From contig NZ_CP131913.1 of the NCBI RefSeq assembly GCF_030704205.1, forward strand, positions 2,790,001 to 2,854,000: a stretch of 64,000 nucleotides of DNA, in the 5' to 3' direction. The position numbers were made by a program, and so were the translations under genes. The notes beneath the pieces are model-generated. The model was not told the DNA's origin. It saw only the letters and a program-made list of their open reading frames with translations, and ran no database searches. Below are positions 21,468 to 34,821 of this stretch, in pieces; the stretch's first letter is position 1, and every line of letters begins with the position of its first letter. Source of the DNA: Halomonas alkalicola. GTDB lineage: Bacteria > Pseudomonadota > Gammaproteobacteria > Pseudomonadales > Halomonadaceae.

Positions 21468-22664
21468 ATGCACGATTTCATCATTGTCGGCGGCGGCATC
21501 CTGGGGATGTCCACCGCCATGCAGCTCAAGCAGGCCTACCCGGAGCGGCGCATGTTGCTGCTGGAGAAGGAGGCCGAGCCGGCCATGCACCAGACCGGCC
21601 ACAACAGCGGCGTGATCCACGCCGGGGTCTACTACACCCCGGGCAGCCTCAAGGCGCGCTTCTGCCTGGCCGGCAACCGGGCCACCGTCGAGTTCTGCGA
21701 GGCCCACGGCATTCCCTACGACACCTGCGGCAAGCTGCTGGTGGCCACCAACGACCTGGAGATGGAGCGCATGAAGGCGCTCTGGGAGCGCACCGCGGCC
21801 AACGGCCTCGAGCGTGAGTGGCTCTCCGCCGAGGCGTTGGCCGAGCGCGAGCCCAATATCACCGGGGTCGGCGGCATCTTCGTGCCCTCCAGCGGCATCG
21901 TCGACTACGCCGCGGTGACCCGCGCCATGGCCGCCGAGTTCGAGCGGATGGGCGGCGAGATCCGCTACGGCTGCGAGGTGACGGGCCTCGAGGAGCGAAG
22001 CCGCGAGGTGGTGGTAAGCAGCAGTGGAGGCGAGTTCACGGGGCACTATCTGGTGACCTGCTCGGGGCTGATGGCCGACCGGGTGATCCGCCTGCTGGGC
22101 CAGGACCCAGGCTTCACCATCTGCCCCTTCCGCGGCGAGTACTACCGGCTGCCGGCGAAGCACAATGCGATCGTCAACCACCTGATCTATCCGATCCCCG
22201 ACCCCTCCATGCCCTTCCTGGGCGTGCACCTGACGCGGATGATCGACGGCAGCGTCACCGTGGGGCCCAACGCGGTGCTGGCGCTCAAGCGCGAGGGCTA
22301 CCACAAGCGTGATATCTCGCTTCCCGACATGGCGCGGATGTTCACCAACCCCGGCATCCTCAAGGTGCTGGGCAAGAACCTGCGTCCGGGCCTGGTGGAG
22401 ATGAAGAACTCCCTCTACAAGCGGGGCTACCTGGAGCTGGTGCGCAAGTACTGCCCGAGCCTGACCCTCGAGGACCTCGAGCCCTATCCGGCCGGGGTGC
22501 GCGCCCAGGCGGTCTCCCGGGACGGCAGGCTGGTGGACGACTTCCTGTTCGTGAACACCCGGCGCACCCTCAACGTGGGCAATGCCCCGTCGCCCGCGGC
22601 GACCTCGGCGATTCCCATCGGTGCCCATATCGTCGAGCAGGTGAAGTCGCTGGTGGAGGGCTGA
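21468..22664 (+). CDS. lhgO: L-2-hydroxyglutarate oxidase/dehydrogenase
   Basis: A 398-residue FAD enzyme. The N-terminal dinucleotide fold is FIIVGGGILGMSTAMQLK, followed by HQTGHNSGVIHAGVYY, the L2HGDH/LhgO signature. It oxidises L-2-hydroxyglutarate to 2-oxoglutarate, passing electrons to quinone (as known for E. coli LhgD/LhgO). I start at the ATG at 21468, preceded by AGAGAG; the longer frame from 21393 lies in the hairpin region. It completes the glutarate route begun by glaH and returns the 2-oxoglutarate used by that enzyme. Confidence 0.93.
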   Translation: MHDFIIVGGGILGMSTAMQLKQAYPERRMLLLEKEAEPAMHQTGHNSGVIHAGVYYTPGSLKARFCLAGNRATVEFCEAHGIPYDTCGKLLVATNDLEMERMKALWERTAANGLEREWLSAEALAEREPNITGVGGIFVPSSGIVDYAAVTRAMAAEFERMGGEIRYGCEVTGLEERSREVVVSSSGGEFTGHYLVTCSGLMADRVIRLLGQDPGFTICPFRGEYYRLPAKHNAIVNHLIYPIPDPSMPFLGVHLTRMIDGSVTVGPNAVLALKREGYHKRDISLPDMARMFTNPGILKVLGKNLRPGLVEMKNSLYKRGYLELVRKYCPSLTLEDLEPYPAGVRAQAVSRDGRLVDDFLFVNTRRTLNVGNAPSPAATSAIPIGAHIVEQVKSLVEG

Positions 22665-22720
22665 GCGGGCGACCTTGGTGGAATTGCCGAAAAAAACTGA
22701 AAACGTAGAAATATGGCCAG

Positions 22721-22739
22721 GGCCTCTCACGCAGGGGCC
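22721..22739. terminator. Weak hairpin after lhgO
   Basis: GGCCTCT / AGGGGCC with a 5-nt loop and one G-U pair, 56 bp after the lhgO stop, in the 156-bp gap before the TAXI gene. An A-rich tract (22688-22711) lies just upstream and may contain a promoter, but I could not find a convincing -35/-10 pair. Confidence 0.35.
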
Positions 22740-22820
22740 ATGCTAGGTTTCCCTCAGGTGCTTTCCCTCCAGCACCGACAACAACGATACAACAAACGGG
22801 TTTCAGCCCGGAGGATTGCC

Positions 22821-23780
22821 ATGAATGCCATGAAGTACGCCGTCGCCGCCTCGCTGATCGCGACGGCCCCGCTGGCCGCGGCCCAGCAGCTCTCCATCGC
22901 CACCGGCGGTACCGGCGGGGTCTACTACCCCCTGGGCGGCGGCCTGGCCGAGATGATCAACAGCCATATCGAGGGGGCCAGCGCGGTGGCCGAGGTCACC
23001 GGGGCCTCGGTGGAGAACATGGGCCTGGTGTGGCGCGGCGACTCCGATCTCGCCTTCGCCCTGGCCGATACCGTCTATCAGGCCTACAACGGCACCGGCG
23101 ACTTCGAGGGGCGCCAGCTCGACAACATCCGTGCCCTGGCCTCGGTCTATCCCAATGCCGTGCAGCTGGTCACCCTGGCCGACTCCGGCGTGGAGTCCCT
23201 CGAGGACCTGCGCGGCAAGCGGGTCTCGGTGGGCGCTCCGGGCAGCGGTACCGAGCTCAACGCCCGCGCCCTGCTGGAAGCCAACGGCATCACCTATGAC
23301 GACTTCACCCCCCAGCGCCTGAACTTCAACGAGACCGCCGACGCCATCCGCGATGGCGACATCGACGCCGGTTTCTGGAGCGTGGGCCCGCCCACCAGCT
23401 CCATCCTCAACCTGGCCACCACCCGCGATATCCGCCTGGTGGGACTCTCCGAGGAAGAAGTGGCCAACGCCCGGGAAGCGGAGCCGGTCTTCGCCCCCTA
23501 TGACCTGCGTGCCGGCCTCTACGAGGGCATGGACGAGGCCGTGCAGACCATCGGCATTCCCAACGTGCTGGCGGTGAGCAGCGAGATGGACGAGGAGCTG
23601 GCCTACCAGATCACGAAGATGCTCTTCGAGCAGACCGATGAGCTGATCGCGGTGCACCCGGCGGCCAACGACACCACCGTGGAGTTCAGCATCGACTCCA
23701 CCCCGGTGCCCTTCCATGATGGCGCGCTGCGCTACTATGAGGAGATCGGCGCCGAGGTCCAGGACCACCAGCGCCCGTAA
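22821..23780 (+). CDS. TAXI-family TRAP transporter solute-binding protein
   Basis: A 319-residue periplasmic protein. The signal peptide is residues 1-19 (MNAMKYAVAASLIATAPLAAAQQ), and the mature chain starts at LSIATGGTGGVYYPLGGG, the TAXI signature. The start at 22821 has GGAGG 7 bp upstream. TAXI receptors feed fused TRAP permeases; characterised ones bind glutamate, glutamine or 2-oxoglutarate-like ligands. It is co-directional with glaH-lhgO and followed by a DUF1850 protein and the permease. Import of glutarate, 2-hydroxyglutarate or a lysine-derived amino acid is therefore a fair inference, not shown. Confidence 0.9.
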   Translation: MNAMKYAVAASLIATAPLAAAQQLSIATGGTGGVYYPLGGGLAEMINSHIEGASAVAEVTGASVENMGLVWRGDSDLAFALADTVYQAYNGTGDFEGRQLDNIRALASVYPNAVQLVTLADSGVESLEDLRGKRVSVGAPGSGTELNARALLEANGITYDDFTPQRLNFNETADAIRDGDIDAGFWSVGPPTSSILNLATTRDIRLVGLSEEEVANAREAEPVFAPYDLRAGLYEGMDEAVQTIGIPNVLAVSSEMDEELAYQITKMLFEQTDELIAVHPAANDTTVEFSIDSTPVPFHDGALRYYEEIGAEVQDHQRP

Positions 23781-23803
23781 CGCGCCCCGAGCCGGGCACC
23801 CCG

Positions 23804-24316
23804 ATGTCTTCTTCGATCCATGACGTCAGCCGCCGTGCCTTCGGGCCGGCGGCCTTTGCGCTCTGTCTGCTGCTCGCTCCGTCGGCCCATGCCGACGACG
23901 AGGGCTGGCTGGAGGTCACCGCCGACAACGGTCGGCGGATCGCCTCGCTGCCGATGCCCGAGGGCGAGGCCTGGTGCCTGGAGTGGAACCACTCCGTGGC
24001 CGGCTTTCCCGTGCAGGACTGCTATCGCTATCGCCACCGGGAGGGCCTGATGGTGCTGGAGCGCAGCCACCAGCCCGACTTCGCCGCCGGGCTCGGCCAC
24101 GTGCCTGGCCGGGGGCGACAGGTCTCCGACGGCGAGGGTGGCTACTGGATCGAGGAGATCGACGAGCCGGTGCCCGGCAACCGCTATCGCCTCCGGGTCG
24201 GATCCCCGGAGGTCAACCATCGACTGCTGCACGAGGGCCGCCGGCTCAGCCTGAGCGACCAGGCCGCCGGCGAGCGGGTGACGATCCACCTGCGCACCTC
24301 GGCATCCACCTCCTGA
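23804..24316 (+). CDS. DUF1850 protein of TAXI-TRAP operon
   Basis: A 170-residue exported protein with a hydrophobic N-terminal segment (AAFALCLLLAPSAHA) and a signal-peptidase-like AHA site. The core has the DUF1850 pattern: WCLEWNHSVAGFPVQDCYR followed by a conserved RSHQPDFAAGLGH. This family sits between the binding protein and fused permease of TAXI-TRAP operons, as here (gaps of 23 and 10 bp). It may be a periplasmic accessory. Its biochemical role is unknown. Confidence 0.85.
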   Translation: MSSSIHDVSRRAFGPAAFALCLLLAPSAHADDEGWLEVTADNGRRIASLPMPEGEAWCLEWNHSVAGFPVQDCYRYRHREGLMVLERSHQPDFAAGLGHVPGRGRQVSDGEGGYWIEEIDEPVPGNRYRLRVGSPEVNHRLLHEGRRLSLSDQAAGERVTIHLRTSASTS

Positions 24317-24326
24317 CGAGACGCCC

Positions 24327-26360
24327 ATGAGCGAATCCGCCAAGCCTGCCGCCACTGCGCCCGAGGTCACCGTGCCTGGGGGAGGCGCCATCCAGGCGCG
24401 CTCCATCCTCTGGCTGATCACCCTGGTGGCCGTGGGGCTCTCCCTGTTCCAGCTCTATTCGGCCGGCATCCAGCCGCTGGGACTCTTCTACCAGCGCAGC
24501 ATCCACCTGATGCTGATCATGGTGCTGGCCTTCCTGATCTTTCCGGTCTTCGGCCCCCACCGCAAGCGCGGCGTGCTGGGCTGGACCATCGACTGCCTGT
24601 TCCTGGCCGGGGCCCTGCTCACCGGCGGCTACCTGGTGATCTACCTGGACGAGATCTTCCGCCGTGCCGGGTTCTGGAGCCAGACCGACATCATCGTCGG
24701 CTGCATCGCCACCCTGACCGTGCTGGAGGCCAGCCGCCGCGCGGTGGGCCTGGGCATGACCATCATCGGTGCCGTGGCCATCCTCTACGCCTTCGCCGGC
24801 CCGCGGGGCGAGCTGCCGTGGCTCGGGCAGTGGCTGCCCGGCATCCTGGAGCATCGCGGCTACAACATCGACCGTGTGGTGGGCCAGCTCTACCTGGGCC
24901 AGGAGGGCATCTTCGGCCTGCCGCTGGGCGTGGCGGCCACCTACATCTTCATCTTCGTGCTGTTCGGCGCCTTCCTCGAGATCACCGGCGCCGGCAAGTT
25001 CTTCATCGACCTGGCCTACGCCGCCACCGGACGCCAGCGCGGGGGGCCCGCCAAGGCGGCGGTCATCGCCTCCGCCGGCATGGGCTCCATCTCCGGCAGC
25101 GCCATCGCCAACGTGGTGACCACCGGCGCCTTCACCATCCCGCTGATGAAGCGCCTGGGTTATAAGCCCAAGCAGGCCGGGGGCATCGAGGCGGCGGCCT
25201 CCACCGGAGGGCAGATCACGCCCCCCCTGATGGGGGCGGGTGCCTTCCTGATTGCCGAATATACCAATACGCCGTACATCGAGATCGTCAAGATCAGCAT
25301 CCTGCCGGCGATCATGTATTTCGCCACCGTCTATCTCTTCGTACACATCATCGCCCTCAAGCAGGGCATGCAGGGCATGGCCAAGAGCGAGCTGCCCCAG
25401 GTGCGCGAGGTGATGAAGGAGGGCTGGCACTTCCTGCTGCCGCTGGGCGTGCTGGTGTGGCTGCTGGTGATGCACATGTCGCCCATGCGGGTAGGCTTCT
25501 ACGCGGTGGTCACCATGCTGGCCGTGGCCGTGCTGCGCTACGCCATCTGGTTCCTGTTCGTCGCCCCGCGCCAGGGCGAGAAGGTGACCCTGGCCCGGGT
25601 CGGGTCCGTGGTCTGGGCCGGCTGGGTGAAGCTGGTACAGGGCCTCGAGCTCGGCGCGCGCAACGCCGTGGCGGTCTCCATGGCCTGTGCGGTGGCGGGC
25701 ATCATCGTCGGCATCGTCGGCCTGACCGGGCTCGGCCTGAAGTTCTCCGCCATGATGCTGGCCTTCTCCGGCGGCAACATCGTGCTGGCGCTGATCCTGG
25801 TGCTGCTGGCCAGCCTGGTGCTGGGCATGGGCCTACCGGTCACCGCCAGCTACATCGTGCTGATCGTGCTGGTGGGCCCGGCGCTGACCGCCGAGTTCGG
25901 CATCCCGCTGCTGATCGCCCACCTGGTGGTGTTCTGGTACTCCCAGGACTCCAACGTGACGCCCCCCATCGCGCTGGCCGGCTTCGCCGGGGCGGCCATC
26001 GCCGGCTCCAGGCCCATGGAGACCGGCTTCCAGGCCTGGAAGTTCGCCAAGGGGCTCTACCTGATCCCGCTGTTCATGGTCTTCAATCCGGAGATCATCG
26101 TGGGCGCCCCCTGGGCGGTGGTGGCCTGGAACGGCCTGATCGCGATCCTCGCCCTGGGGGCCTTCGCCGCGGCGCTGGAGGGGTATCTGTTCACGCGGAT
26201 GTCGTGGCTGCCGCGCATCGCCATCGCCGGCGCCATCGTGGCGGTGTTCTGGCCGAACTTCCTGGTGGAGGCCGCCGGGGTGGCGGTGATGGTCCTGGCC
26301 ATCGGTGCCAACTGGCTGGCCAGCCGGCGGGAGGGGGCGCTGTCCAGCCGGTCAAGGTGA
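24327..26360 (+). CDS. TRAP transporter fused permease (4TM/12TM)
   Basis: A 677-residue membrane protein joining the small DctQ-like and large DctM-like parts, about 17 hydrophobic helices. DctM-type blocks include GMGSISGSAIANVVTTGAFT, GGQITPPLMGAGAFLIAEY and MGLPVTASYIVLIVL. Transport is Na+-driven in this family, suiting a halophile. It completes the TAXI operon. The transcript probably ends at 26370-26399. Confidence 0.93.
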   Translation: MSESAKPAATAPEVTVPGGGAIQARSILWLITLVAVGLSLFQLYSAGIQPLGLFYQRSIHLMLIMVLAFLIFPVFGPHRKRGVLGWTIDCLFLAGALLTGGYLVIYLDEIFRRAGFWSQTDIIVGCIATLTVLEASRRAVGLGMTIIGAVAILYAFAGPRGELPWLGQWLPGILEHRGYNIDRVVGQLYLGQEGIFGLPLGVAATYIFIFVLFGAFLEITGAGKFFIDLAYAATGRQRGGPAKAAVIASAGMGSISGSAIANVVTTGAFTIPLMKRLGYKPKQAGGIEAAASTGGQITPPLMGAGAFLIAEYTNTPYIEIVKISILPAIMYFATVYLFVHIIALKQGMQGMAKSELPQVREVMKEGWHFLLPLGVLVWLLVMHMSPMRVGFYAVVTMLAVAVLRYAIWFLFVAPRQGEKVTLARVGSVVWAGWVKLVQGLELGARNAVAVSMACAVAGIIVGIVGLTGLGLKFSAMMLAFSGGNIVLALILVLLASLVLGMGLPVTASYIVLIVLVGPALTAEFGIPLLIAHLVVFWYSQDSNVTPPIALAGFAGAAIAGSRPMETGFQAWKFAKGLYLIPLFMVFNPEIIVGAPWAVVAWNGLIAILALGAFAAALEGYLFTRMSWLPRIAIAGAIVAVFWPNFLVEAAGVAVMVLAIGANWLASRREGALSSRSR

Positions 26361-26385
26361 CGGGGGAGGGCCGCACGGCTAGAAT
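26357..26385 (+). promoter_or_regulatory. Candidate sigma-70 promoter of purEK
   Basis: GTGACG (26357-26362), 17-bp spacer, TAGAAT (26380-26385). Transcription would start near 26392, giving a leader of about 50 nt to the purE ATG. The -35 is a 4/6 match. No clear PurR palindrome is seen. Confidence 0.5.
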
Positions 26386-26399
26386 GTGCGGCTTTCCTT
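26370..26399 (+). terminator. Terminator of the TAXI-TRAP operon
   Basis: A 7-bp stem (GCCGCAC / GTGCGGC), 9-nt loop, followed by TTTCCTTCC. It overlaps the -10 of the candidate purE promoter. Confidence 0.6.
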
Positions 26400-26442
26400 C
26401 CCGCACTCTCTATCCTGAACAGGCAGTCGCCGAGGAGCATCG

Positions 26443-26949
26443 ATGCAGTCCGAACAGTCGCCGAAGGTTGGCGTGATCATGGGGTCGAAGTCCGACTGGC
26501 CGGTGATGGAACACGCCGTGGCGATGCTCGAACGCCTGGGTGTGCCCTTCGAGACCCGCGTCGTTTCCGCCCACCGCACGCCGGACCTGCTGTTCGACTA
26601 CGCCAAGCCCGCCGCCGACCGGGGGCTTCAGGTGATCGTGGCCGGCGCCGGCGGCGCGGCCCACCTGCCGGGCATGGTGGCCTCCCAGACCGCGCTGCCG
26701 GTGCTCGGCGTGCCGGTGGAGTCCAAGGCGCTCAAGGGGCTCGATTCGCTGCTCTCCATCGTGCAGATGCCGGGCGGCATCGCCGTGGGCACGCTCGCCA
26801 TCGGCAAGGCCGGCGCCACCAATGCCGGCCTGCTGGCGGCCCAGATCGTCGGCCTGCAGGATGCGGCGGTGCGTGGTGCGGTGGAGGCGTTCCGTGCCGA
26901 GCAGACGCAGACGGTGCTCGACAACCCCGATCCCCGTCCCGAGCCCTGA
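26443..26949 (+). CDS. purE: N5-carboxyaminoimidazole ribonucleotide mutase
   Basis: A 168-residue class I PurE, normal length. The substrate loop [12 protein letters not shown] and [13 protein letters not shown] with its catalytic His are present. It converts N5-CAIR to CAIR in purine synthesis. GAGGAG precedes the ATG. It forms a two-gene operon with purK 39 bp downstream. Confidence 0.96.
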
Positions 26950-26988
26950 TAGCCCAGCCCTGATAGAGAGACGAGTGAGGAGAATGTC

Positions 26989-28125
26989 GTGGAAAAAGCC
27001 ATGAACATCGGCGTCCTGGGTGCCGGCCAGCTCGGCCGCATGCTGGCCCTGGCCGGCTACCCGCTGGCCAACCGCTTCACCTTCCTCGATACCACCGGCC
27101 ACCCCAGCGCCGGGATCGGGGAGGTCCTGATCCATACCGACCAGCACCATCTGCTCGACGATTTCCTGGCGAAGGTGGACCTCGTCACCTACGAGTTCGA
27201 GCACCTGCCGGTCTCCCTGGTCCAGGCCATCGAGGAGGTGAAGCCGGTCTATCCCTCCAGCGAGGCGATCCGCGTCTGCCAGAACCGCGCCGAGGAGAAG
27301 GCGCTGTTCGACCGCCTGGGCATTCCCACCCCCACCTACCGCCTGGTGGAGCACGCCGATGAGCTCGAGGCCGCGGCCCGGGAGCTGGGCTGTCCGGTGG
27401 TGGCCAAGTCGGTCACCGAAGGCTACGACGGCAAGGGCCAGGCGGTGATCCGCGACCCCGCCGAGGCGGCGGAAGCCTGGCGCGCCATCGGCCATCCCAG
27501 ACTGATCGTCGAGGCCTTCGTGGAGTTCGTGCGCGAGGTGTCGATCATCGCCGTGCGCGGCCGCGACGGCCAGGTGGTCTTCTACCCCATGGCCGAGAAC
27601 CAGCACGTGGACGGCATCCTGCGCTATTCCGTGGCGCCCATGCCGGACCTGGACGACAGCGTCCAGCAGACCGCCGACGGCTACATCCGCGCGCTGCTCG
27701 ACGAGCTCGACTACGTGGGGGTGCTGACCCTGGAGCTCTTCCAGTGCGCCGACGGCAGCCTGCTGGCCAACGAGATGGCGCCGCGGGTGCACAACTCCGG
27801 CCACTGGACCATGGACGGTGCGGTGACCAGCCAGTTCGAGAACCACCTGCGCGCCATCCAGGGCCTGCCGCTTGGCGATACCGCGGCGCGGATGCCCACC
27901 TGCATGGTCAATGTGATCGGCCGCGAGGGGAACCCGGCGGCGATCCTCGCCCTGCCGGACGCCCACCTGCACCGCTACGACAAGAGCGAGCGCCCCGGGC
28001 GCAAGCTGGCCCACGTCAACCTGGTGGCGCCGACCCACGAGGCGCTGATGGCGCGGGTGCGCGCCTGCGCGGCCCTGCTGCCCGAGGCCCCCGAGCCCCG
28101 CTTCAGCTTCGAGAAGGCCGACTGA
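26989..28125 (+). CDS. purK: 5-(carboxyamino)imidazole ribonucleotide synthase
   Basis: A 378-residue ATP-grasp enzyme making N5-CAIR from AIR, bicarbonate and ATP. The N-terminal MNIGVLGAGQLGRMLALAG and the ATP-grasp core (VVAKSVTEGYDGKGQ, then EMAPRVHNSGHWT) are typical. The GTG at 26989 has GAGGAG six bases upstream, while the ATG at 27001 is 18 bases from it, so GTG is favoured. The next feature is a strong terminator. Confidence 0.95.
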   Translation: MEKAMNIGVLGAGQLGRMLALAGYPLANRFTFLDTTGHPSAGIGEVLIHTDQHHLLDDFLAKVDLVTYEFEHLPVSLVQAIEEVKPVYPSSEAIRVCQNRAEEKALFDRLGIPTPTYRLVEHADELEAAARELGCPVVAKSVTEGYDGKGQAVIRDPAEAAEAWRAIGHPRLIVEAFVEFVREVSIIAVRGRDGQVVFYPMAENQHVDGILRYSVAPMPDLDDSVQQTADGYIRALLDELDYVGVLTLELFQCADGSLLANEMAPRVHNSGHWTMDGAVTSQFENHLRAIQGLPLGDTAARMPTCMVNVIGREGNPAAILALPDAHLHRYDKSERPGRKLAHVNLVAPTHEALMARVRACAALLPEAPEPRFSFEKAD

Positions 28126-28155
28126 ACGGCTCTCCCCATCGGCATCGGCAACGCA

Positions 28156-28188
28156 AGCGGCCCCGCCATCTGGCGGGGCCGCTCGTTT
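28156..28188. terminator. Strong bidirectional terminator between purK and phoX
   Basis: A perfect 12-bp stem (AGCGGCCCCGCC / GGCGGGGCCGCT) with an ATCT loop, followed by CGTTTCA on the plus strand. It lies between convergent purK and phoX. Confidence 0.85.
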
Positions 28189-28203
28189 CAGAACACTAGG
28201 CCG

Positions 28204-30231
28204 TCAGGCCCCGATGATGCCGCCGTCCTCCCGGGTAATGACCAGGGTCGCCGAGCGTGGGATGGCGCTGCCGCCGTCCGGCCAGTGGCTCACCAGCTCG
28301 CCTGCGGCGAAGGCCTCGGCCTCGGTGGTGGCGCCCGGATGCTGGACGTTGACGAACATGGTGCGCTGGTCCGGGGTGGTCACCACGCCGGTGATCTCCT
28401 GACCCACGGGGCCGGTGAGGAAGCGGCGGATCTCGCCGGTCTCGGGGTTGGCGGCCAGCATCTGGTTGTTGCCGAACACCTCGAAGATACCGGTGTTCAT
28501 CACCGACTCGCTGATATCGGTCTGGATCCACACCCGGCGGTCGGCGTCGATCCACAGGCCGTCGGGGTTGGCGAAGATCGCCTCCTGACCCAGGGGCTCG
28601 CCGGCGAGGATCGGCTGGCTGTCGTCGCCGTCCCCGGCCAGCACGAAGAGGTCCCAGGCGAAGCGGGTGCCGGCGTGGCTGCCCTCTTCCTGCCAGCGGA
28701 TGATATGCCCGAAGTGGTTCTCGGCGCGGGGGTTGGCGGCGTCCTCGTCGCCCGCCTCGCGGCGAGTGTTGTTGGTCAGGGTGAAGTAGACCTGTCCGGT
28801 GGCCGGGTCCACCGCGCCCCACTCGGGGCGATCCATCTTCGTGGCGCCGGCCTGGTCGGCGGCGGCGCGGGTGTTGACCAGGATATCGGCGAGATCCGCG
28901 AAGCCGTTCTCCGGGGTGAGGCCGTTCTCGCCCGGGGCCAGGGCCAGCCACTCGCCGCGGCCGTCCTCATGGAACCTGGCCACGTAGAGGGTGCCCTCGT
29001 CGAGCAGGGAGCCGTCGGCAGTGGCGGCGTGGTAGGGGCGGGCGGAGACGAACTTGTAGATGTACTCGAAGCGGGCGTCGTCGCCGGAGTAGGCCACCAC
29101 CGGCTGCCCCTCCACCGCCGGGGCGAAGATCACCCCCTCGTGGGCGAAGCGGCCGAGGTGGGTGCGCTTGACCGGGGTGGCCGCCGGGTCCAGGGGGTCG
29201 ATCTCCACCATCCAGCCGAAGGCGTGGGGCTCGTTGCGGTAGTCCTCGGCGGGGGTGGCGCCGCGGCTGCTGGCGTCGAAGCGCACGAACTCGTCGGCGC
29301 CGCTCTCTGCCCGGTGCCACTGGTAGCGGCCGGTGTCGCGGGTCTGAATGCCGTAGCGGGCCTGGCGGCGATCGATCTCGGCGTCGCTGTTGGCGAAGTA
29401 GCCGGCCCAGTTCTCCTCGGCGGCCAGGTAGGTGTTCCAGGGGGTGACGCCGTGGGCGCAGTTGTTGAGGGTGCCGCGGGTCATGGTGCCGTCCGGGCTG
29501 TACTTCGTCACCACATGCTCGGTGCCGGCCACGGGGCCGGCGAGGCGCATCGGGGTCAGGCCGGTGATGCGGCGGTTGCGGGCGTCCTCGACCACCTGCC
29601 ACTGGCCGTCGCTGCCCTCGCGGATGCGCACCACGCTGACGCCGTGGGCGTTGAGCTCCTTGAGCACCTGGTCGTCGTCGCGGCTGCCGTCGGCGTTCTG
29701 GGGGAAGCCGTTGCGGTCCAGCGCCAGGCCCGCGGCGGCGGCGTGCAGGAAGCGCGGCTCCACGTACTCGTGGTTCATCACCAGCAGGCCGTCCCGGGAG
29801 CTGCCCTCCAGCGGGAAGAAGTGCACGCCGTCGTGGTGGCTGCCCACCTGGTGCCCCTGGGCCTCGCCGCTGGCGTCAAGCGAGAAGGCCGGCATGTCGC
29901 CGCTGATCGGGGTGCCCCAGGGCAGGATGGCGCTGACCCGGTAGCCCTCCGGGACCACCACGCTGTCGGCGGCGCTGACCGGAATGGCCTTGAAGCCGAG
30001 GCTCGGCGCCGGGGCGCTGGCGCCACCGGCGGCGAAGGCGCTGCCGAAGGGCAGCTGGGTGGCCATGGCGCCGGCCACGGCGGCGGCAAGGCTGCCGCGC
30101 AGCATGGCGCGGCGGCTGATGCGCGCCTCGAGGATATCGCCGAAGTAGCCGTTGGCCGAGGCGTTACTCATGGGCTCGTCGCCGGCGGCGAGAACGGGGT
30201 CGACGTGGCCGGGGTGCTGATGCTGGGTCAT
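28204..30231 (-). CDS. PhoX-family alkaline phosphatase (DUF839)
   Basis: A 675-residue Tat-exported protein. The twin-arginine motif is SRRAMLRGSLAAAVAGAM (about residues 39-56). The body has PhoX marks: NHEYVEPRF, TLNNCAHGVTPWNTYLAAEE with a conserved Cys, then EIDPLDPAATPVKRTHLGRF. PhoX is a Ca/Fe-dependent periplasmic phosphomonoesterase. A convincing Pho box is not seen upstream, only a weak match near 30310-30327. Neighbours are unrelated, so it is a single-gene unit. Confidence 0.85.
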   Translation of the reverse strand: MTQHQHPGHVDPVLAAGDEPMSNASANGYFGDILEARISRRAMLRGSLAAAVAGAMATQLPFGSAFAAGGASAPAPSLGFKAIPVSAADSVVVPEGYRVSAILPWGTPISGDMPAFSLDASGEAQGHQVGSHHDGVHFFPLEGSSRDGLLVMNHEYVEPRFLHAAAAGLALDRNGFPQNADGSRDDDQVLKELNAHGVSVVRIREGSDGQWQVVEDARNRRITGLTPMRLAGPVAGTEHVVTKYSPDGTMTRGTLNNCAHGVTPWNTYLAAEENWAGYFANSDAEIDRRQARYGIQTRDTGRYQWHRAESGADEFVRFDASSRGATPAEDYRNEPHAFGWMVEIDPLDPAATPVKRTHLGRFAHEGVIFAPAVEGQPVVAYSGDDARFEYIYKFVSARPYHAATADGSLLDEGTLYVARFHEDGRGEWLALAPGENGLTPENGFADLADILVNTRAAADQAGATKMDRPEWGAVDPATGQVYFTLTNNTRREAGDEDAANPRAENHFGHIIRWQEEGSHAGTRFAWDLFVLAGDGDDSQPILAGEPLGQEAIFANPDGLWIDADRRVWIQTDISESVMNTGIFEVFGNNQMLAANPETGEIRRFLTGPVGQEITGVVTTPDQRTMFVNVQHPGATTEAEAFAAGELVSHWPDGGSAIPRSATLVITREDGGIIGA

Positions 30232-30342
30232 GGGGGCTCTCCACGGATGAGGTTGGGTATCTCGGTGGGAGAGCTTGCCCCGGCGGCGTTACATCAGCGT
30301 GTCTGGATGGAGTCACTTCGGTTACAGAGGCGCAAACGACGA

Positions 30343-30364
30343 GGGCCCCGCCGAAGCGGGGCCC
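30343..30364 (-). terminator. Terminator of the DUF2231/haem-protein operon
   Basis: A perfect 9-bp stem (GGGCCCCGC / GCGGGGCCC) with a CGAA tetraloop, 28 bp past the stop of the DUF2231 gene on the minus strand and followed there by TCGTCGTTT. Confidence 0.75.
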
Positions 30365-30391
30365 TGCCGGTGGGGGAGGGTGAGGCCGCTG

Positions 30392-30943
30392 TCAGCGGCG
30401 GCTGCGCTGGCTCATGAAGCCGAGCACCCCCAGTGCGATGCCGATAATCAACATCACGGCGATGACCCAGAGCGGGCTGTAGAAGGTGGTATAGACTTCC
30501 CATCCCATCAGGCCGAGCACCGCAGAGAACGCCGTGGTGGCGCCCACCAGGTGGCCACCCAGGGTGCCTGCGGAGGCGAACATCAATGCCCCTGTCAGGG
30601 CCGGGACTACCAGGGCCCAGCGCCGGGCACCGTCGAAAGCCGAGGCGCCGGCTCGCCACACCACTACGGTGAGCATGGTGAAGATGCCCAGTGACCAGAG
30701 CGCCATCAGGATATGGTTGCGTGCCAGAGGGCTGGCCAGGTTGGCCTCCATTGGCCAGATCAAGAAGCCGATGGTAAGGGTCGCCACGGCACCTAGCAGG
30801 CTCAGCACCAGTACCGGCAGCAGGGCGGCGCGGCTGAGCTCAGCCATCTTGCCGGGCAGGAAGGCGCCGACCAGGATCATCAGGGTGGCCAGCGCCCAGA
30901 ACCCGATCGGGAAGTGAGAAAGCATAGCGTGAGTGCCGGTCAT
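30392..30943 (-). CDS. DUF2231-like membrane protein
   Basis: A 183-residue protein with about five hydrophobic helices and the opening MLSHFPIGFWALATLMILVG, like the HFP-motif DUF2231 family. His residues near helix ends (LSHFP, ARNHILM, GGHLVG) could be haem ligands but this is not established. The start at 30943 overlaps the upstream stop (ATGA), so it is coupled to the haem protein gene. A longer frame from 31036 overlaps that gene and is rejected. It is part of an unassigned redox module. Confidence 0.75.
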   Translation of the reverse strand: MTGTHAMLSHFPIGFWALATLMILVGAFLPGKMAELSRAALLPVLVLSLLGAVATLTIGFLIWPMEANLASPLARNHILMALWSLGIFTMLTVVVWRAGASAFDGARRWALVVPALTGALMFASAGTLGGHLVGATTAFSAVLGLMGWEVYTTFYSPLWVIAVMLIIGIALGVLGFMSQRSRR

Positions 30944-32382
30944 GAGCGGTCTCCTTGATGAGTCTGGCGGAAGGAAGGTAGTAGCGCCAAGGTGACGCCG
31001 AGCATGGCGATCAGGCCGGCGATAAGAGTCATCCACCAGCGGGTCGTGATGGCGTCGTTGAACTCCATCTCTACCCCGTAGAGGGCGAGTTGCTTCTCGC
31101 TGTGGCGTGGCCTGACTGGCTTGCCTTCGGCGATATCTTCGGCGCCGGCGTGAGCACGGCTGATCAACAGCGGCCAGTCGACCTGCCCGGGATAGAAGAG
31201 CGTCATCTCGAACCAGTCAGTCGACCAGTCCGGGGAGTCCCCCTCGAAGGCCCGTGCCTGGAAGTCGGCTTCGCGTCCCAGGCCTACCGTGTAGGGATGC
31301 GATACGTAGTGCCAGCGGCTCCCGGTGGCGTTGCGATAGACGCCGATGCCGATGTCGTACACGCCCTGTTCACGGAACGCCTTGTCGTCCAGTGGGCTTC
31401 GGGTGTCCATGTCTCGTACCAGGGTCACGTCCCAGTAGCCGTCCGCCCAGCGGGCAGGGCCTTCATGCACCATGATATCGCCGCGGGAGCCGGCCGGCTC
31501 CCGCAGCAGGCGCCGCGGGATCACATCACCGTTCTGCCAGTCGTGGTCGGGGTCGAAGTCGGTCCGGTTGTCCTCGGAAAGGTAGTAGATGCCGTCGAAA
31601 TCGACGCCCCCTGAGGTCACATCTTCCCAGCGCAGCGATCGCTGACCGGTCTGCTCGGGGTCGAGCATCCAGCGCGGCCGGTTGTTATCGCCATCCCAGT
31701 TGGTGGTGAAGGGACCGCCGCCGGCATCGCCGTGGCGATATTCGCCGACCCACTGGTCATCGGAGGCGCCGATGGCATTGGAGCGCCCGGCGCGCCAGTG
31801 CCAGAGATCCAGGAAGTAGCCGGCCTCCCGCTGGGCTTGCAGCACATCCGCGTCGACTACGCTGCGCCAGTCATTCTGGTTTGACCGGGTCGCGGGTAGG
31901 TACTTGCGGACATCGCTCTCGCCGAGAGTCTCGCCCAGATGAGGATGGGCGCGCACGTCAGCCGGCGAGGCGGAGTTGCTGAAGAAGCGCATCTGGTCGC
32001 CGACGGTGATGTAACCGCCATAGCGCCCGAAGTCGGGGACGCCGCCATCGTCGACCAGCATCGCCACTCGATCCTCGTAGGTGCCGGCGGGATCGGGCCC
32101 TGCAACCGAACTGCCGTGGCGAATCCACTCACCGTCCTCGTAGCGCAGCATGTCGTGATAGACATGGGGCTGAGATGCCGGCCAACGATAGCGGAAGAAG
32201 ATCTGCTCGCCGTTGTAGGCGGCCTGCACCTGCAGCGGCATGGTCAGCTCATCGGGAATCCAGATATTGCGTTCGAGGTCGTTCTCTACCACCCCGGTGC
32301 CCTGGGTCACCCAGGCCAGCCCGAGGGCAAGCGGAAGCCCCAGGACCAGCCAGGACCTAGCGCCGTTGTCGTGACTTTCCAT
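30940..32382 (-). CDS. Ethylbenzene-dehydrogenase-like haem-binding protein with C-terminal anchor
   Basis: A 480-residue protein. An N-terminal hydrophobic segment (WLVLGLPLALGLAWV) and a C-terminal helix (MTLIAGLIAMLGVTLALLPSF) bracket a large periplasmic domain. The domain looks like the EB_dh/cytochrome c-552 haem domain (DOMON-like): IPDELTMPLQVQAAYNGEQ near the start, then WHWRAGRSNAIG and GYWDVTLVRDMDT. Related domains bind haem b and carry electrons to or from Mo enzymes. No Mo subunit is encoded here. It is divergent from a flavocytochrome gene across a 304-bp gap. I infer a membrane electron carrier; partners and substrate are unknown. Confidence 0.72.
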   Translation of the reverse strand: MESHDNGARSWLVLGLPLALGLAWVTQGTGVVENDLERNIWIPDELTMPLQVQAAYNGEQIFFRYRWPASQPHVYHDMLRYEDGEWIRHGSSVAGPDPAGTYEDRVAMLVDDGGVPDFGRYGGYITVGDQMRFFSNSASPADVRAHPHLGETLGESDVRKYLPATRSNQNDWRSVVDADVLQAQREAGYFLDLWHWRAGRSNAIGASDDQWVGEYRHGDAGGGPFTTNWDGDNNRPRWMLDPEQTGQRSLRWEDVTSGGVDFDGIYYLSEDNRTDFDPDHDWQNGDVIPRRLLREPAGSRGDIMVHEGPARWADGYWDVTLVRDMDTRSPLDDKAFREQGVYDIGIGVYRNATGSRWHYVSHPYTVGLGREADFQARAFEGDSPDWSTDWFEMTLFYPGQVDWPLLISRAHAGAEDIAEGKPVRPRHSEKQLALYGVEMEFNDAITTRWWMTLIAGLIAMLGVTLALLPSFRQTHQGDRS

Positions 32383-32451
32383 ATGATCTCCAGCCTAAGA
32401 TAAGTTAGTAGCATTGTCGCATTCAGTATGGGCGCCTCTGAGCGGATTTCT

Positions 32452-32465
32452 CTGACACAGATCAA
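32452..32465 (-). promoter_or_regulatory. Candidate FNR/Dnr-like site in the 304-bp divergent gap
   Basis: On the minus strand TTGATCTGTGTCAG at 32465-32452 matches FNR/Dnr-type boxes (TTGAT-N4-ATCAA or -GTCAA), with one to two mismatches in the right half. A CATACT (minus, 32430-32425) lies 31 bp downstream and could be a -10. The rest of the gap (32383-32686) shows no gene; I see only the ribosome site GGGAGG before 32687. Confidence 0.4.
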
Positions 32466-32686
32466 GATGGGGCGAACAACGTGATGTAGGCCTTGATGAC
32501 TGGCGCCTATCGGCGACACTGTCAGGTAGCGTTCGACAGGGTGAGGCGTGATGCGGCTATGGCTTGGGTGGGCGGTATCGCCCTGATGACCATGCTGATG
32601 CCGGTTCAGTGTGGCACAAGAGCGCCTGAACGGGGGCAGTCTGCGCATTGGCTGTCGCTCGGCAACATGTGGGCAAGGGAGGTGCC

Positions 32687-33979
32687 ATGAGTTACCGAAT
32701 ACAACGCGGTGATCTGCTGTTGATCATGGCCTTGCTGGTGCCGCTGGTGGTAGCGGCGCCGAGGCTGGGCTGGCCGCCGGGGGAGGCGGCGGCGCTGCTC
32801 GGCTGGGTGGGGCGCGTCAGCGGTATTCTGGGACTGGCCATGCTGCTGGTGACCGCGGCGCTGAGCATCCGGTTGCCGGGATTCGACCGCTGGTTCGGCG
32901 GGCTCGACCGGCTCTGGCAGCTGCACCGGCTGCTCGGTTTCAGCGCCTTTATCCTGATCATGCTGCACGTGCTGGCGCTCGGCCTGGCGCGGGTGCCGGC
33001 GGGCCTAGACGTGGCGATATTGACGCTGTTTCCGCCGCTGTCGCAGCTGGCACTGTGGAGCGGCTGGCTGGCCTGGCTGGCGATGGTGATCTTCCTGGCG
33101 CCGACCTTCCAGTTCTTCGGCCGGCTCGACTACCAGCGCTGGAAGCGCCTGCATATGCTGTCGGCAGCGGCGCTGCTGCTGGCGCTGGGCCACGCGTTGC
33201 CGCTGGCGGGGGAGACCTGGCCGTGGTGGCTGCTCGGCGCCCTTGGCGCGGGTGCCATGGTGTGGCGCAAGCTGCTGTCGCCGTCGCTTGCCCGCCACGC
33301 TTACCGGGTCGAGAGCGTCGAGTCGTTGGCCCGCGGCGTGGTGGAAATTGCCCTGAGGCCGGAGGCTCGCGGGCTTAGCTATCGCCCCGGCCAGTTCGTC
33401 TATCTCACCCCGCTCGACGAATCGCTGACCGCGGGACGCGGCGAGGAGCACCCCTACACCATTGCCTCGGCCCCGGATGATCCTTTGCTGAGGCTCGGCA
33501 TCAAGGATCTCGGCGATGCCAGCCATGCCCTGCAGACCGTCAGTGTGGGCAGTCGGGCGATGCTCGAGGGGCCTTACGGCGACTTCTTCGCCGTGGACTA
33601 TCCTCAGCGAGACGCGCTGTGGCTCGGCGGCGGCATCGGCATCACACCATTCGTCAGCGCAGCCAGGGGAATGGCTGCTGAAGATGAAGGACGTCATGCC
33701 CAGCTGTTCTACCTGGCCAACGGCCCCGACCGTGCCTACTACCTCGATGAGCTCACCCGCTGCGCCGAGGAGGTCGAGCGCTTGACGGTAACCGCCCACT
33801 TCTACCGTGAGCAGGGGCCGCTCAGCGAATCCTTCCTGCGCCACCACTGCCCGGACTACGCCGACCGCGAGATCTACCTGTGCGGCCCGCCCGGGATGAT
33901 CGGCCACCTGCGTGACCTGCTCGCCGCCCAGGGCGTGCCGGCATCGCGTATCCACTGCGAGGTCTTCGATTTCCTATGA
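32687..33979 (+). CDS. Ferric-reductase-like flavocytochrome (FRD transmembrane + FAD/NAD domain)
   Basis: A 430-residue protein. About six N-terminal helices include two His pairs, LHRLLGFSAFILIMLH (14 apart) and LHMLSAAALLLALGH (13 apart), the two-haem pattern of ferric reductases/NOX. The C-terminal half is a ferredoxin-reductase-like unit: RPGQFVYLTP, HPYTIASAP (FAD), LGGGIGITPFVSAARG and YLCGPPGM (NAD). It should move electrons from cytosolic NAD(P)H across the membrane. GGAGG precedes the ATG at 32687. Its stop overlaps the start of a cytochrome b5/FMN protein (ATGA), the likely acceptor. Confidence 0.85.
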   Translation: MSYRIQRGDLLLIMALLVPLVVAAPRLGWPPGEAAALLGWVGRVSGILGLAMLLVTAALSIRLPGFDRWFGGLDRLWQLHRLLGFSAFILIMLHVLALGLARVPAGLDVAILTLFPPLSQLALWSGWLAWLAMVIFLAPTFQFFGRLDYQRWKRLHMLSAAALLLALGHALPLAGETWPWWLLGALGAGAMVWRKLLSPSLARHAYRVESVESLARGVVEIALRPEARGLSYRPGQFVYLTPLDESLTAGRGEEHPYTIASAPDDPLLRLGIKDLGDASHALQTVSVGSRAMLEGPYGDFFAVDYPQRDALWLGGGIGITPFVSAARGMAAEDEGRHAQLFYLANGPDRAYYLDELTRCAEEVERLTVTAHFYREQGPLSESFLRHHCPDYADREIYLCGPPGMIGHLRDLLAAQGVPASRIHCEVFDFL

Positions 33980-34821
33980 ACAAGATTGCCTATAGTGCCT
34001 TTATCGCCTTCCTGGCCAGTATCGGCACCCTGGTCTCGGTGCAGGCGCTCTCGTCGGACGAGGCCGACAGCGCCGGCGACGAGCGTGATATCACCCTTGA
34101 CGAGCTGGCCGAGCACGCTAGCGCCGAGAGCTGCTGGAAGGCCATTCACGGTGGCGTCTACGACATCACCGACTACGTCCCCGACCACCCCACCGAGGAA
34201 GAGGTGATCCTCGAGTGGTGCGGACGTGAATCCAGTGAGGCGTGGGACAACAAGAGCCCCGGGCGGCCACATAGCCCGGCCGCCGAGCGCCAGCTGGAGA
34301 ACTATCGCATCGGGCGGCTGGTCGACGACCAGGGCGAACCGCTGGAAAGCGCCGATACCGGCGAGTTGCCTAGCGAGGAGCAGGATCAGCCGATGGAGCA
34401 GGAAGCGGCGGCTGCCGCACCGTCTCCCGCTGAGGATCAGCGTCTGCACCGCGCCATGCTCGGACAGCCGCTGGACGGCCACTACCGCGGCGTGTTCACC
34501 GACCGCGGCGAGATTCAGGTCAATATCACCTTCGACCTGCGCGATGGCCACCTGAGCGATGTGAATTTCCGCCATCTCGCCTATCGCGGCGTCGACTACC
34601 TGACCCTGGAGGAGGATGCGGACCTGTACCCGGTGATGGTGCAGCATCGCCGCATCACCGAGTGGCTGGAGGGCGAGCCCCTGACCTCGATCTTCGCTCT
34701 TTACGAGCCCGAGCGCGTGGTCGACGAGGTGGACGGCTTCAGCGGCGCCACCCTGCGCGGCGCCAAGGTGATCTCGGCGATGCGCGACGGCCTCAACCGC
34801 GGGGTCTATAGCTGGCCCTAG
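33976..34821 (+). CDS. Periplasmic cytochrome b5-like / FMN-binding domain protein
   Basis: A 281-residue protein with an N-terminal membrane anchor (YSAFIAFLASIGTLVSV). Residues 35-115 resemble cytochrome b5: GGVYDITDYVPDHPTEEEV with first haem His in HPTE (canonical HPGG), and RPHSPAAERQLENYRIG with the second. A low-complexity Glu/Ala linker (about 120-155) leads to an FMN-binding domain (about 160-281) ending in DGFSGATLRGAKVI. SGAT is the type of motif that ApbE modifies with covalent FMN in NosR/RnfG/NqrC proteins. It overlaps the flavocytochrome gene by 4 bp, so electrons probably pass from that to haem and then FMN. The terminal acceptor is unknown. Confidence 0.82.
   Translation: MNKIAYSAFIAFLASIGTLVSVQALSSDEADSAGDERDITLDELAEHASAESCWKAIHGGVYDITDYVPDHPTEEEVILEWCGRESSEAWDNKSPGRPHSPAAERQLENYRIGRLVDDQGEPLESADTGELPSEEQDQPMEQEAAAAAPSPAEDQRLHRAMLGQPLDGHYRGVFTDRGEIQVNITFDLRDGHLSDVNFRHLAYRGVDYLTLEEDADLYPVMVQHRRITEWLEGEPLTSIFALYEPERVVDEVDGFSGATLRGAKVISAMRDGLNRGVYSWP

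Follow-up and report, generated by a model that had tools for sequence, protein, structure and literature searches.

The divergent four-gene locus of Halomonas alkalicola analyzed here probably encodes two separable redox units that have a common promoter region in the genus: a trans-membrane route formed by a flavocytochrome (FLC) and a cytochrome b5 protein (b5F), and an electron relay formed by an EB_dh protein and a DUF2231-like membrane protein. The locus lies in a stretch of 64,000 nucleotides, which we call the window.

Gene content and layout of the locus

As the preliminary description had claimed, the ORF list of the window contains four genes in two overlapping pairs that face apart from a 304-bp gap, and Pfam supports their content. 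The two genes of each pair share the sequence ATGA, at 30940-30943 in the minus-strand pair and at 33976-33979 in the plus-strand pair, and translational coupling within each overlapping pair is plausible from this arrangement. The features are as follows:

30392-30943, minus strand: DUF2231-like membrane protein, 183 aa (Pfam DUF2231, 21.4 bits; helical model, pLDDT 80.6)
30940-32382, minus strand: EB_dh protein, 480 aa (Pfam EB_dh; large non-membrane domain and one C-terminal hydrophobic helix)
32452-32465, no strand: FNR/ANR-type box CTGACACAGATCAA, 70-83 bp upstream of EB_dh, 8/10 to consensus
32551-32601, plus strand: probable 5'-end remnant of an earlier Halomonas-type flc (recombination scar), from the alignment with loci L018 and L023
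32687-33979, plus strand: FLC, NOX/FRE-type two-heme flavocytochrome, 430 aa (Ferric_reduct, FAD_binding_8 and NAD_binding_1)
33976-34821, plus strand: b5F, with an N-terminal membrane anchor or signal, a cytochrome b5 domain and an FMN_bind-like C-terminal domain (Cyt-b5 58.3 bits, FMN_bind 16.7 bits)
34732-34752, plus strand: flavinylation motif DGFSGAT, aa 253-259 of b5F, from the alignment of b5 homologues

Distribution and co-variation of the two pairs

The preliminary description had read the four genes as one module and had proposed a search for neighborhood conservation as a check. Among 90 sampled genomes of the genus, 14 carried both pairs, 19 only the EB_dh pair and 12 only the FLC pair; of the 45 genomes carrying at least one pair, 31 had just one, and another genome of the same species has EB_dh with no FLC match. 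Where both pairs occurred, they were adjacent and divergent in 13 of 14 genomes, which bears out the conservation of this arrangement in the genus, and pure chance adjacency was rejected there on that count. The two pairs also co-occurred somewhat above chance (14/90 in the genus, p 0.029; 3/151 in the family, p 0.034). EB_dh adjoined FLC in 14 of the 31 FLC loci labelled Halomonadaceae, and stood beside FLC/b5 in 0 of the 32 assessable loci not so labelled.

In a comparison of 14 loci, the window and 13 others, the protein distances of FLC and b5 were correlated (r 0.75, 0 of 2000 permutations), whereas those of EB_dh and FLC were not (r 0.00, p 0.48). The distances of the DUF2231-like protein correlated weakly with those of FLC (r 0.23, p 0.041) and b5 (r 0.28, p 0.0095), and poorly with those of EB_dh (r 0.11, p 0.15). 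The co-occurrence, the 13/14 adjacency and the weak correlations of the DUF2231-like protein with FLC and b5 argue for some link between the pairs. Overall, adjacency goes beyond chance in the genus, yet the pairs are separable, and the data favor two units over the single module first proposed.

The flavocytochrome and its cytochrome b5 partner

Ferric_reduct, FAD_binding_8 and NAD_binding_1 all exceed their Pfam cut-offs in FLC, and its best relative in a phmmer search against solved structures was 8qt6 (E 3.5e-23, residues 48-418), which we take to be SpNOX. The four candidate heme histidines (H80/H94 and H156/H169) and further motif residues are invariant in 65/65 sequences, and the HPYT, GGGIGITP and CGP motif residues are largely invariant in the same 65. 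By its sequence, FLC is an NADPH-oxidase/ferric-reductase (NOX/FRE)-type flavocytochrome. The spacing of its histidines equals that of His-101/115 and 209/222 of NOX2, the two heme-binding pairs in TM3 and TM5 (PMC3591440). For NOX sensu stricto, a group also marked by superoxide production, the same work gives as criteria equivalents of Thr-178/Gly-179 in TM4 and of His-119, four residues past the second TM3 histidine (PMC3591440); the His-119 position is Leu98 in the window FLC, and none of the 65 FLC sequences has His there. SpNOX, in its phmmer alignment with FLC, also seems to lack this residue, which makes the His-119 criterion less than absolute.

In 65 of the 68 loci with room to judge, the gene immediately upstream of b5 is FLC (the exceptions being L069, L071 and L072); these loci were gathered via b5, a route by which FLC genes without b5 are invisible. 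The Cyt-b5 domain of b5F (aa 40-115) scores 58.3 bits against a Pfam cut-off of 23.7, and the closest b5 in the PDB is 1cxy (E 1.5e-25; both Cys retained), presumably the periplasmic cytochrome b5 from Ectothiorhodospira. H71 and H99, which we take from known b5 structures to be the heme ligands, are invariant in 16/16 aligned b5 sequences, as are C53 and C82. The FMN_bind score of 16.7 bits is under the Pfam cut-off of 22, so this label for the window protein rests on homologues, among which P0102, P0105 and P0107 exceed the cut-off. We take DGFSGAT to be a flavinylation motif, and b5F probably carries covalent FMN. The motif occurs in 43 of 73 b5 ORFs and is absent from 28 uncut ones, and 2 ORFs are cut by contig ends; the 28 uncut ORFs without it, set against the 43 with it, point to the heme as the constant part of these proteins. 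The genome has a single ApbE match, approximately 0.73 Mb from the locus, and no apbE lies in the cluster.

The EB_dh and DUF2231-like pair

The EB_dh protein scores 169.8 bits against a Pfam cut-off of 33.3. Its large domain is non-membrane and presumed to be exported, and its C-terminal hydrophobic helix lies at about 453-471. It matches the folds of EbDH gamma (PDB 2ivf_C) and NXR gamma (7b04_C) and has the fold of a heme-b gamma subunit of molybdenum (type II DMSO-reductase-family) enzymes. In the available text of PMC8840923, the heme of such gamma subunits is ligated by Met/Lys. A weak profile alignment, in which the Met region is unaligned, places Asp343 of EB_dh opposite the ligand Lys of 2ivf_C; the lysine ligand of EbDH is apparently replaced, and the presence of heme in EB_dh is therefore uncertain.

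The score of its partner against DUF2231 (PF09990) is under the cut-off of 26.4, so this label also depends on homologues: that of locus L112 reaches 30.8 bits, above the cut-off, and many others are precomputed as DUF2231. H10 and H77 are invariant and H5 nearly so in 26 aligned sequences. The pair is kept without adjoining FLC in 16 fetched loci.

The intergenic gap

The window box matches 8/10 positions of TTGATNNNNATCAA, taken as the consensus of FNR/ANR-type boxes. With at least 8/10 matches required within -120 to -55, related sequences included in the counts and other intergenic promoters as controls, boxes were found at 16/31 EB_dh genes, 27/59 FLC genes and 15/335 control promoters. 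FLC loci without EB_dh had a box in 17/46 cases (16/45 without L009, whose EB_dh gene is cut), divided into 13/18 loci labelled Halomonadaceae vs 4/28 others (p 0.049 against controls); EB_dh loci without FLC had one in 7/17 cases, and in 1/8 (L126) outside the family. Within the family, both pairs thus have an excess of upstream boxes, unlinked pairs included; outside it the enrichment is only weak. The same genome encodes an Fnr-like protein with an N-terminal CxxC-x5-C and the helix VETVSRILGRFQ, which together we take to be the Fnr signature, and a regulator of the FNR/ANR type may switch on both pairs when oxygen is scarce.

The window has 222 bp between the box and FLC. Its intergenic stretch can be aligned over the start of flc in two loci, as far as 32585 in L018 and 32601 in L023, and 32551-32601 is probably the remnant of an earlier Halomonas-type flc 5' end, left as a recombination scar. 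The 222-bp distance is due to this scar, and at such a distance the window FLC allele may have lost the box. The FLC side of the window is most similar to Franzmannia, and we keep recombination as the explanation for the presence of this particular allele here.

The boxes before both pairs and the NOX/FRE likeness of FLC had been overlooked in the preliminary description.

Putative mechanism and related systems

In the mechanism that we propose for the first unit, FLC would oxidize cytoplasmic NAD(P)H via FAD, pass single electrons across the membrane through its two stacked b hemes and donate them to a dedicated periplasmic cytochrome b5. Covalent FMN would be attached to the C-terminal domain of b5F by ApbE, whose gene lies elsewhere in the genome, and this FMN would carry the electrons on to a periplasmic acceptor that is diffusible or unlinked; the b5 heme would be the constant acceptor and the flavin an optional extension. 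The electron path suggested earlier, from NAD(P)H to periplasmic heme and covalent FMN, agrees with this likely route to the b5 heme and with probable FMN. In the second unit, EB_dh would be a membrane-anchored periplasmic domain partnered by a small membrane protein with invariant histidines, most likely serving as an electron relay between the membrane pool and periplasmic redox proteins. Low oxygen would probably induce both units by way of an FNR/ANR-type regulator.

Periplasmic FMN-binding domains take part in trans-membrane electron transfer in NosR and in Rnf/Nqr; this theme is common to our locus, but its four genes constitute none of these systems. The oxygen-regulated path from NAD(P)H to the periplasm is best read as a cytochrome b5 variant of the described MsrQ/NOX-like systems. 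As far as the available text of PMC8238504 goes, NAD(P)H-to-extracytosolic-flavin transfer is proposed for MsrQ-like flavinylation-associated systems, related flavinylated systems use flavin and cytochrome interchangeably, and apbE is typically in the cluster. Similar to these systems, the window has a PF01794 protein (Ferric_reduct above cut-off) beside an FMN-binding protein (FMN_bind 16.7 bits, motif conserved). In contrast, the partner here is a cytochrome b5 with an optional flavin motif, and no apbE adjoins it. FLC shares with SpNOX the three-domain architecture, the four heme histidines and the alignment described above, and differs in having a dedicated b5 gene and an acceptor that is probably not O2; service of bacterial NOX-like proteins to periplasmic partners is suggested in the accessible part of PMC5676040. 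The likeness of b5F to 1cxy extends to the two heme histidines and both Cys, whereas two Ectothiorhodospira loci and one Thiococcus locus lack an adjoining FLC and the FMN motif. EB_dh shares Pfam domain and fold with EbDH gamma and NXR gamma, but it has no alpha/beta subunits beside it, a C-terminal membrane helix and a DUF2231 partner, and apparently does not keep the ligand lysine of EbDH in the weak alignment.

The preliminary description did not recognize the set from a described pathway, and no match for the four genes together was found in the open-access literature; it had missed that MsrQ-like flavinylated systems are described (PMC8238504, available text) and that FLC is NOX/FRE-like. 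Judged by the titles and abstract openings of open-access papers, the scope of this search, we recognized no description of the four-gene set, of a NOX-b5 pair or of EB_dh with DUF2231.

Alternative explanations

We consider it unlikely that the four genes form a single module in which electrons run from NAD(P)H through FLC, b5/FMN and the EB_dh heme to DUF2231, or in reverse, with the pairs side by side for co-regulation from one FNR-type box. The divergent adjacency in 13/14 genomes, the 14/31 Halomonadaceae-labelled loci with EB_dh next to FLC, the co-occurrence and the weak DUF2231 correlations speak for such a module, and in L010 and L016, with a gap of 168 bp, one box is the best match for both genes. 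The 31/45 genomes with one pair, the 0/32 loci with EB_dh beside FLC among those not labelled Halomonadaceae, the missing EB_dh-FLC co-variation and the conspecific genome without FLC speak against it. Rather unlikely is also the idea that a molybdenum enzyme with its genes elsewhere in each genome has EB_dh and DUF2231 as its detached gamma subunit and membrane anchor. The fold would fit, and the L110 pair has NrfD, 4Fe-4S and molybdopterin subunits in its neighborhood, no more than about 8-10 kb away; however, the neighbors of the pair vary from locus to locus, the curated gamma-subunit model TIGR03477 gives EB_dh only 15 bits against a cut-off of 169.85, and the longest listed ORF in the 26-40 kb part of the window has 710 aa. 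No Mo or Fe-S subunit was found among the six genes scanned with profiles or, by eye, among the other flanking ORFs of those 26-40 kb.

It is improbable, in our view, that FLC is an NADPH oxidase or assimilatory ferric reductase acting directly on O2 or Fe(III), with b5 as a side branch or regulator. Its FRE/NOX motifs and its similarity to SpNOX, termed a bona fide NADPH oxidase in the accessible part of PMC5676040, are consistent with direct reduction, but a co-varying b5 directly follows FLC in 65/65 FLC loci (collected via b5), and the NOX-specific histidine is replaced by Leu98. Alongside the two separable units, we tentatively raise the possibility of an undescribed class in the NOX family, in which an NAD(P)H flavocytochrome would have a dedicated periplasmic b5, possibly with 1-4 covalent FMN domains, as its obligate acceptor and would be induced at low oxygen by FNR/ANR.

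To our knowledge, no electron donor of the periplasmic cytochrome b5 of bacteria is well known. The conserved, overlapping and co-varying FLC-b5 pair ties a NOX-like enzyme to such a protein, and two purified proteins suffice for a test. The b5 proteins with an optional flavin domain offer a natural series on when evolution adds covalent flavin to a heme relay, and the FNR-type box hints at a growth condition worth examining. Which acceptor bacterial NOX-like flavocytochromes use physiologically is raised as an open question in the accessible part of PMC5676040; a b5-acceptor class, if true, would directly answer what these enzymes reduce in vivo.

Genomic context and neighboring genes

The claim that the usual enzymes are missing agrees with what was tested in the 26-40 kb part of the window, but elsewhere the same genome has NosZ (TIGR04244 above cut-off), a 713-aa FMN_bind ORF beside it that is NosR-like by size and place, and, around the other FMN_bind match, genes that on visual inspection resemble an Nqr operon. 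NosZ occurs in 28/151 family genomes, 4/10 of those with EB_dh (p 0.089) and 4/12 of those with FLC (p 0.16); neither association is significant, and we do not claim a nitrous-oxide or denitrification role.

No third conserved gene was linked to FLC/b5 at 39 loci, namely L036 and 38 loci without a Halomonadaceae label. Among the neighbor clusters there, the widest were GGDEF/EAL signalling proteins, present at 9 loci, and histidine kinases, present at 7 (identified from 3 and 4 scanned members, respectively); both are common families, and we did not treat them as a link. A DUF302 gene precedes FLC in L065, L066 and L074.

Two gene pairs and their co-occurrence

All four open reading frames (ORFs) of the preliminary description were found, the members of each pair overlapping by ATGA:

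30392-30943, minus strand, DUF2231-like membrane protein (DUF), overlapping EB_dh by ATGA
30940-32382, minus strand, EB_dh protein (EB)
32687-33979, plus strand, NOX/FRE-type two-haem flavocytochrome (FLC)
33976-34821, plus strand, cytochrome b5 with an FMN_bind-like C-terminal domain (b5F), overlapping FLC by ATGA

The genome is a single 3.61-Mb contig, the nearest matches to the window are from Halomonadaceae, and Pfam places PhoX to the left and TraX to the right of the set.

The genus and family co-occurrence counts and the adjacency counts at homologous contig loci show that the divergent arrangement is conserved where EB and FLC co-occur, but that most carriers have one pair only. In the genus sample (n=90 genomes), EB occurs in 33, FLC in 26 and both in 14 (p 0.029, or 0.043 if the window's genome is left out), with the pairs adjacent and divergent in 13 of these 14 and on different contigs in the other (G707). 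Among 151 family genomes, 10 carry EB, 12 FLC and 3 both (p 0.034), adjacent only in the window's genome and on different contigs in the other two. EB adjoins FLC in 14/31 FLC loci labelled Halomonas, Billgrantia, Franzmannia or Vreelandella and in 0/32 other FLC loci having enough upstream sequence (L031 and L046, not assessable, were left out). None of the 21 fetched EB loci has FLC next to EB; two weak FLC matches there proved to be a flavohaemoglobin (L103) and a Fer2/FAD/NAD protein (L131).

Protein distances were compared by permutation test across 14 loci (the window and 13 others; 13 loci for EB-PurK). FLC and b5 distances were correlated (r 0.75, 0/2000 permutations), and those of EB and FLC were uncorrelated (r 0.00, p 0.48). 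The remaining values were r 0.11 for DUF-EB (p 0.15), 0.12 for EB-b5 (p 0.10), 0.23 for DUF-FLC (p 0.041), 0.28 for DUF-b5 (p 0.0095) and 0.32 for EB-PurK (p 0.025). EB itself has apparently been shuffled.

The FLC/b5 pair

A genome-contig scan using an alignment of 16 b5F homologues gave 74 loci; as the set was collected by b5, FLC genes without b5 fall outside these counts. The b5 ORF was found in 73 (L076 is a contig-edge fragment), and in 65 of these FLC immediately precedes it on the same strand. Five of the other eight are truncated at a contig edge (L017, L026, L032, L043 and L059), and FLC is missing despite at least 9.7 kb of upstream sequence in L069 (Thiococcus), L071 and L072 (both Ectothiorhodospira). 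The set extends to MAGs whose titles name Bacteriovoracaceae, Spirochaetaceae and Leptospirales (FLC identity 42, 28 and 25-27%, respectively), and many of its named genera are halophiles or haloalkaliphiles. A DUF302 family gene lies just 5′ of FLC in two Marinobacter loci and one from Leptospirales (L065:8224-8610, L066:8204-8602 and L074:8297-8794; assigned by Pfam for L065 and L074, by clustering for L066).

FLC has the full complement of FRE/NOX parts by Pfam, and its best solved relative is 8qt6 (residues 48-418 aligned, E 3.5e-23). All 65 aligned sequences (64 loci plus the window; a length filter left out L012, whose FLC frame is incomplete) share His 80, 94, 156 and 169, the HP of HPYT and a number of nucleotide-binding residues. 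The specific His given in PMC3591440 as a marker of oxygen-reducing NOX is Leu98 in the window FLC and is never His in the aligned FLC sequences.

The b5 domain is nearest to 1cxy. Because the FMN motif is present in only 43/73 b5 ORFs, the b5 haem appears to be constant and the flavin optional; 28 uncut ORFs have no motif, including the full-length L012 with a degenerate one, and two further ORFs lacking the motif are truncated at contig ends. The b5 of L046 and L050 has two motifs and that of L056 four. Both two-motif loci are from Natronospirillum, and in each the b5 gene is followed by a member of the NADPH-dependent FMN reductase family (L046:2735-3346, by Pfam; L050:11340-11921, by clustering). 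In a Saccharospirillum MAG, the 638-aa b5 adjoining FLC (L056:10001-11917) is fused to a multi-flavin chain with the four flavinylation motifs. The window's genome encodes one ApbE, ~0.73 Mb from the right pair, which could serve the b5F flavin.

The right pair is a variant of MsrQ-like systems. As outlined in PMC8238504, MsrQ-like clusters combine PF01794, often a NAD-binding domain, and typically apbE and an FMN-binding gene, with flavins and cytochromes interchangeable across related systems, whereas the partner here is a cytochrome b5, whether or not it carries covalent FMN. The pair also provides a concrete, testable case of the idea, raised in PMC5676040, that bacterial NOX-like proteins have acceptors different from O2, perhaps partners in the periplasm.

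The EB_dh/DUF2231 pair

The DUF2231 partner is kept beside the EB_dh homologue in 16 fetched loci, seven of them from family f55, which belongs to a different class within the phylum, probably the Alphaproteobacteria. The exceptions among the 21 are L114, L115, L116 and L131 (EB ~26-38% identical), together with L130, which is truncated at a contig end. The top fold matches of the EB_dh model (22 sequences; pLDDT 60.6, low confidence) are EbDH gamma and NXR gamma. EB_dh is a candidate haem-binding protein, but a lysine of 2ivf_C is not kept in a weak profile alignment. The DUF2231-like model is predicted to be helical, with H10 and H77 invariant in 26 sequences, and its fold gives no family. 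The left pair is read as a separate, stand-alone unit with a gamma-subunit fold.

Its surroundings vary. In L127:79-14461 (f55), Pfam identifies complex-I membrane subunit genes next to EB/DUF and a COX1/COX2 pair close by; L112 and L128 have some of these neighbours in common with it (BLAST). One Halomonadaceae genome (L103:5964-8598) has flavohaemoglobin-type, Rrf2-type and response-regulator genes immediately 5′ of EB/DUF, and in L110:8606-17998 NrfD, 4Fe-4S, molybdopterin oxidoreductase and extracellular solute-binding protein genes are found within ~10 kb of it.

FNR-type boxes

All upstream regions were scored against the FNR consensus, TTGATNNNNATCAA, at a threshold of at least 8/10 matches within a fixed -120 to -55 window. 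Boxes occur in 16/31 EB and 27/59 FLC promoters versus 15/335 other intergenic promoters of the same loci; the p-values (1e-11 and 3e-15) overstate the case because the sequences are related. FLC loci without EB have the box in 17/46 cases (16/45 omitting L009, in which a contig edge truncates EB), split into 13/18 labelled Halomonadaceae and 4/28 others (p 0.049), and EB loci without FLC in 7/17 (1/8 outside the family). In L010 and L016, one shared box is the best match for both divergent genes, and the conspecific EB promoter also has a box, TTGATCTGCGTCAG. Four Crp/Fnr-family matches in the genome exceed the cut-off, one of them Fnr-like (N-terminal CxxC-x5-C, VETVSRILGRFQ); this protein would bind the boxes upstream of EB and FLC.

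History of the locus

G684, a genome of the same species, is 93% identical over window 22460-32354 and has EB and DUF, but nowhere in this genome does FLC find a match at E 1e-100. At its corresponding site, window 32.4-50.6 kb is unmatched save for a TraX stretch at 73%, 50.6-52.6 kb gives diverged matches only, and 52.8-57.0 kb matches at 89%. The ~18-20 kb without a close match (window:32400-52700) holds FLC/b5, TraX, a LysR-like regulator and, by eye, apparent TRAP transporter genes. Franzmannia is closest to the part compared (to 41.7 kb): window 32.7-41.7 kb is 83-96% identical to L003 (Franzmannia pantelleriensis), and the identity of Halomonas-type loci drops to ~67-78% across FLC. Window 26-30.2 kb is 85-99% identical per 300-base bin to L020 (Halomonas sp. 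Y3), a locus without EB. In the gap between EB and FLC, ~50 bp align with the flc start of L018 and L023 but are not in the reading frame of the present FLC; this stretch is probably the scar of a previous flc allele.
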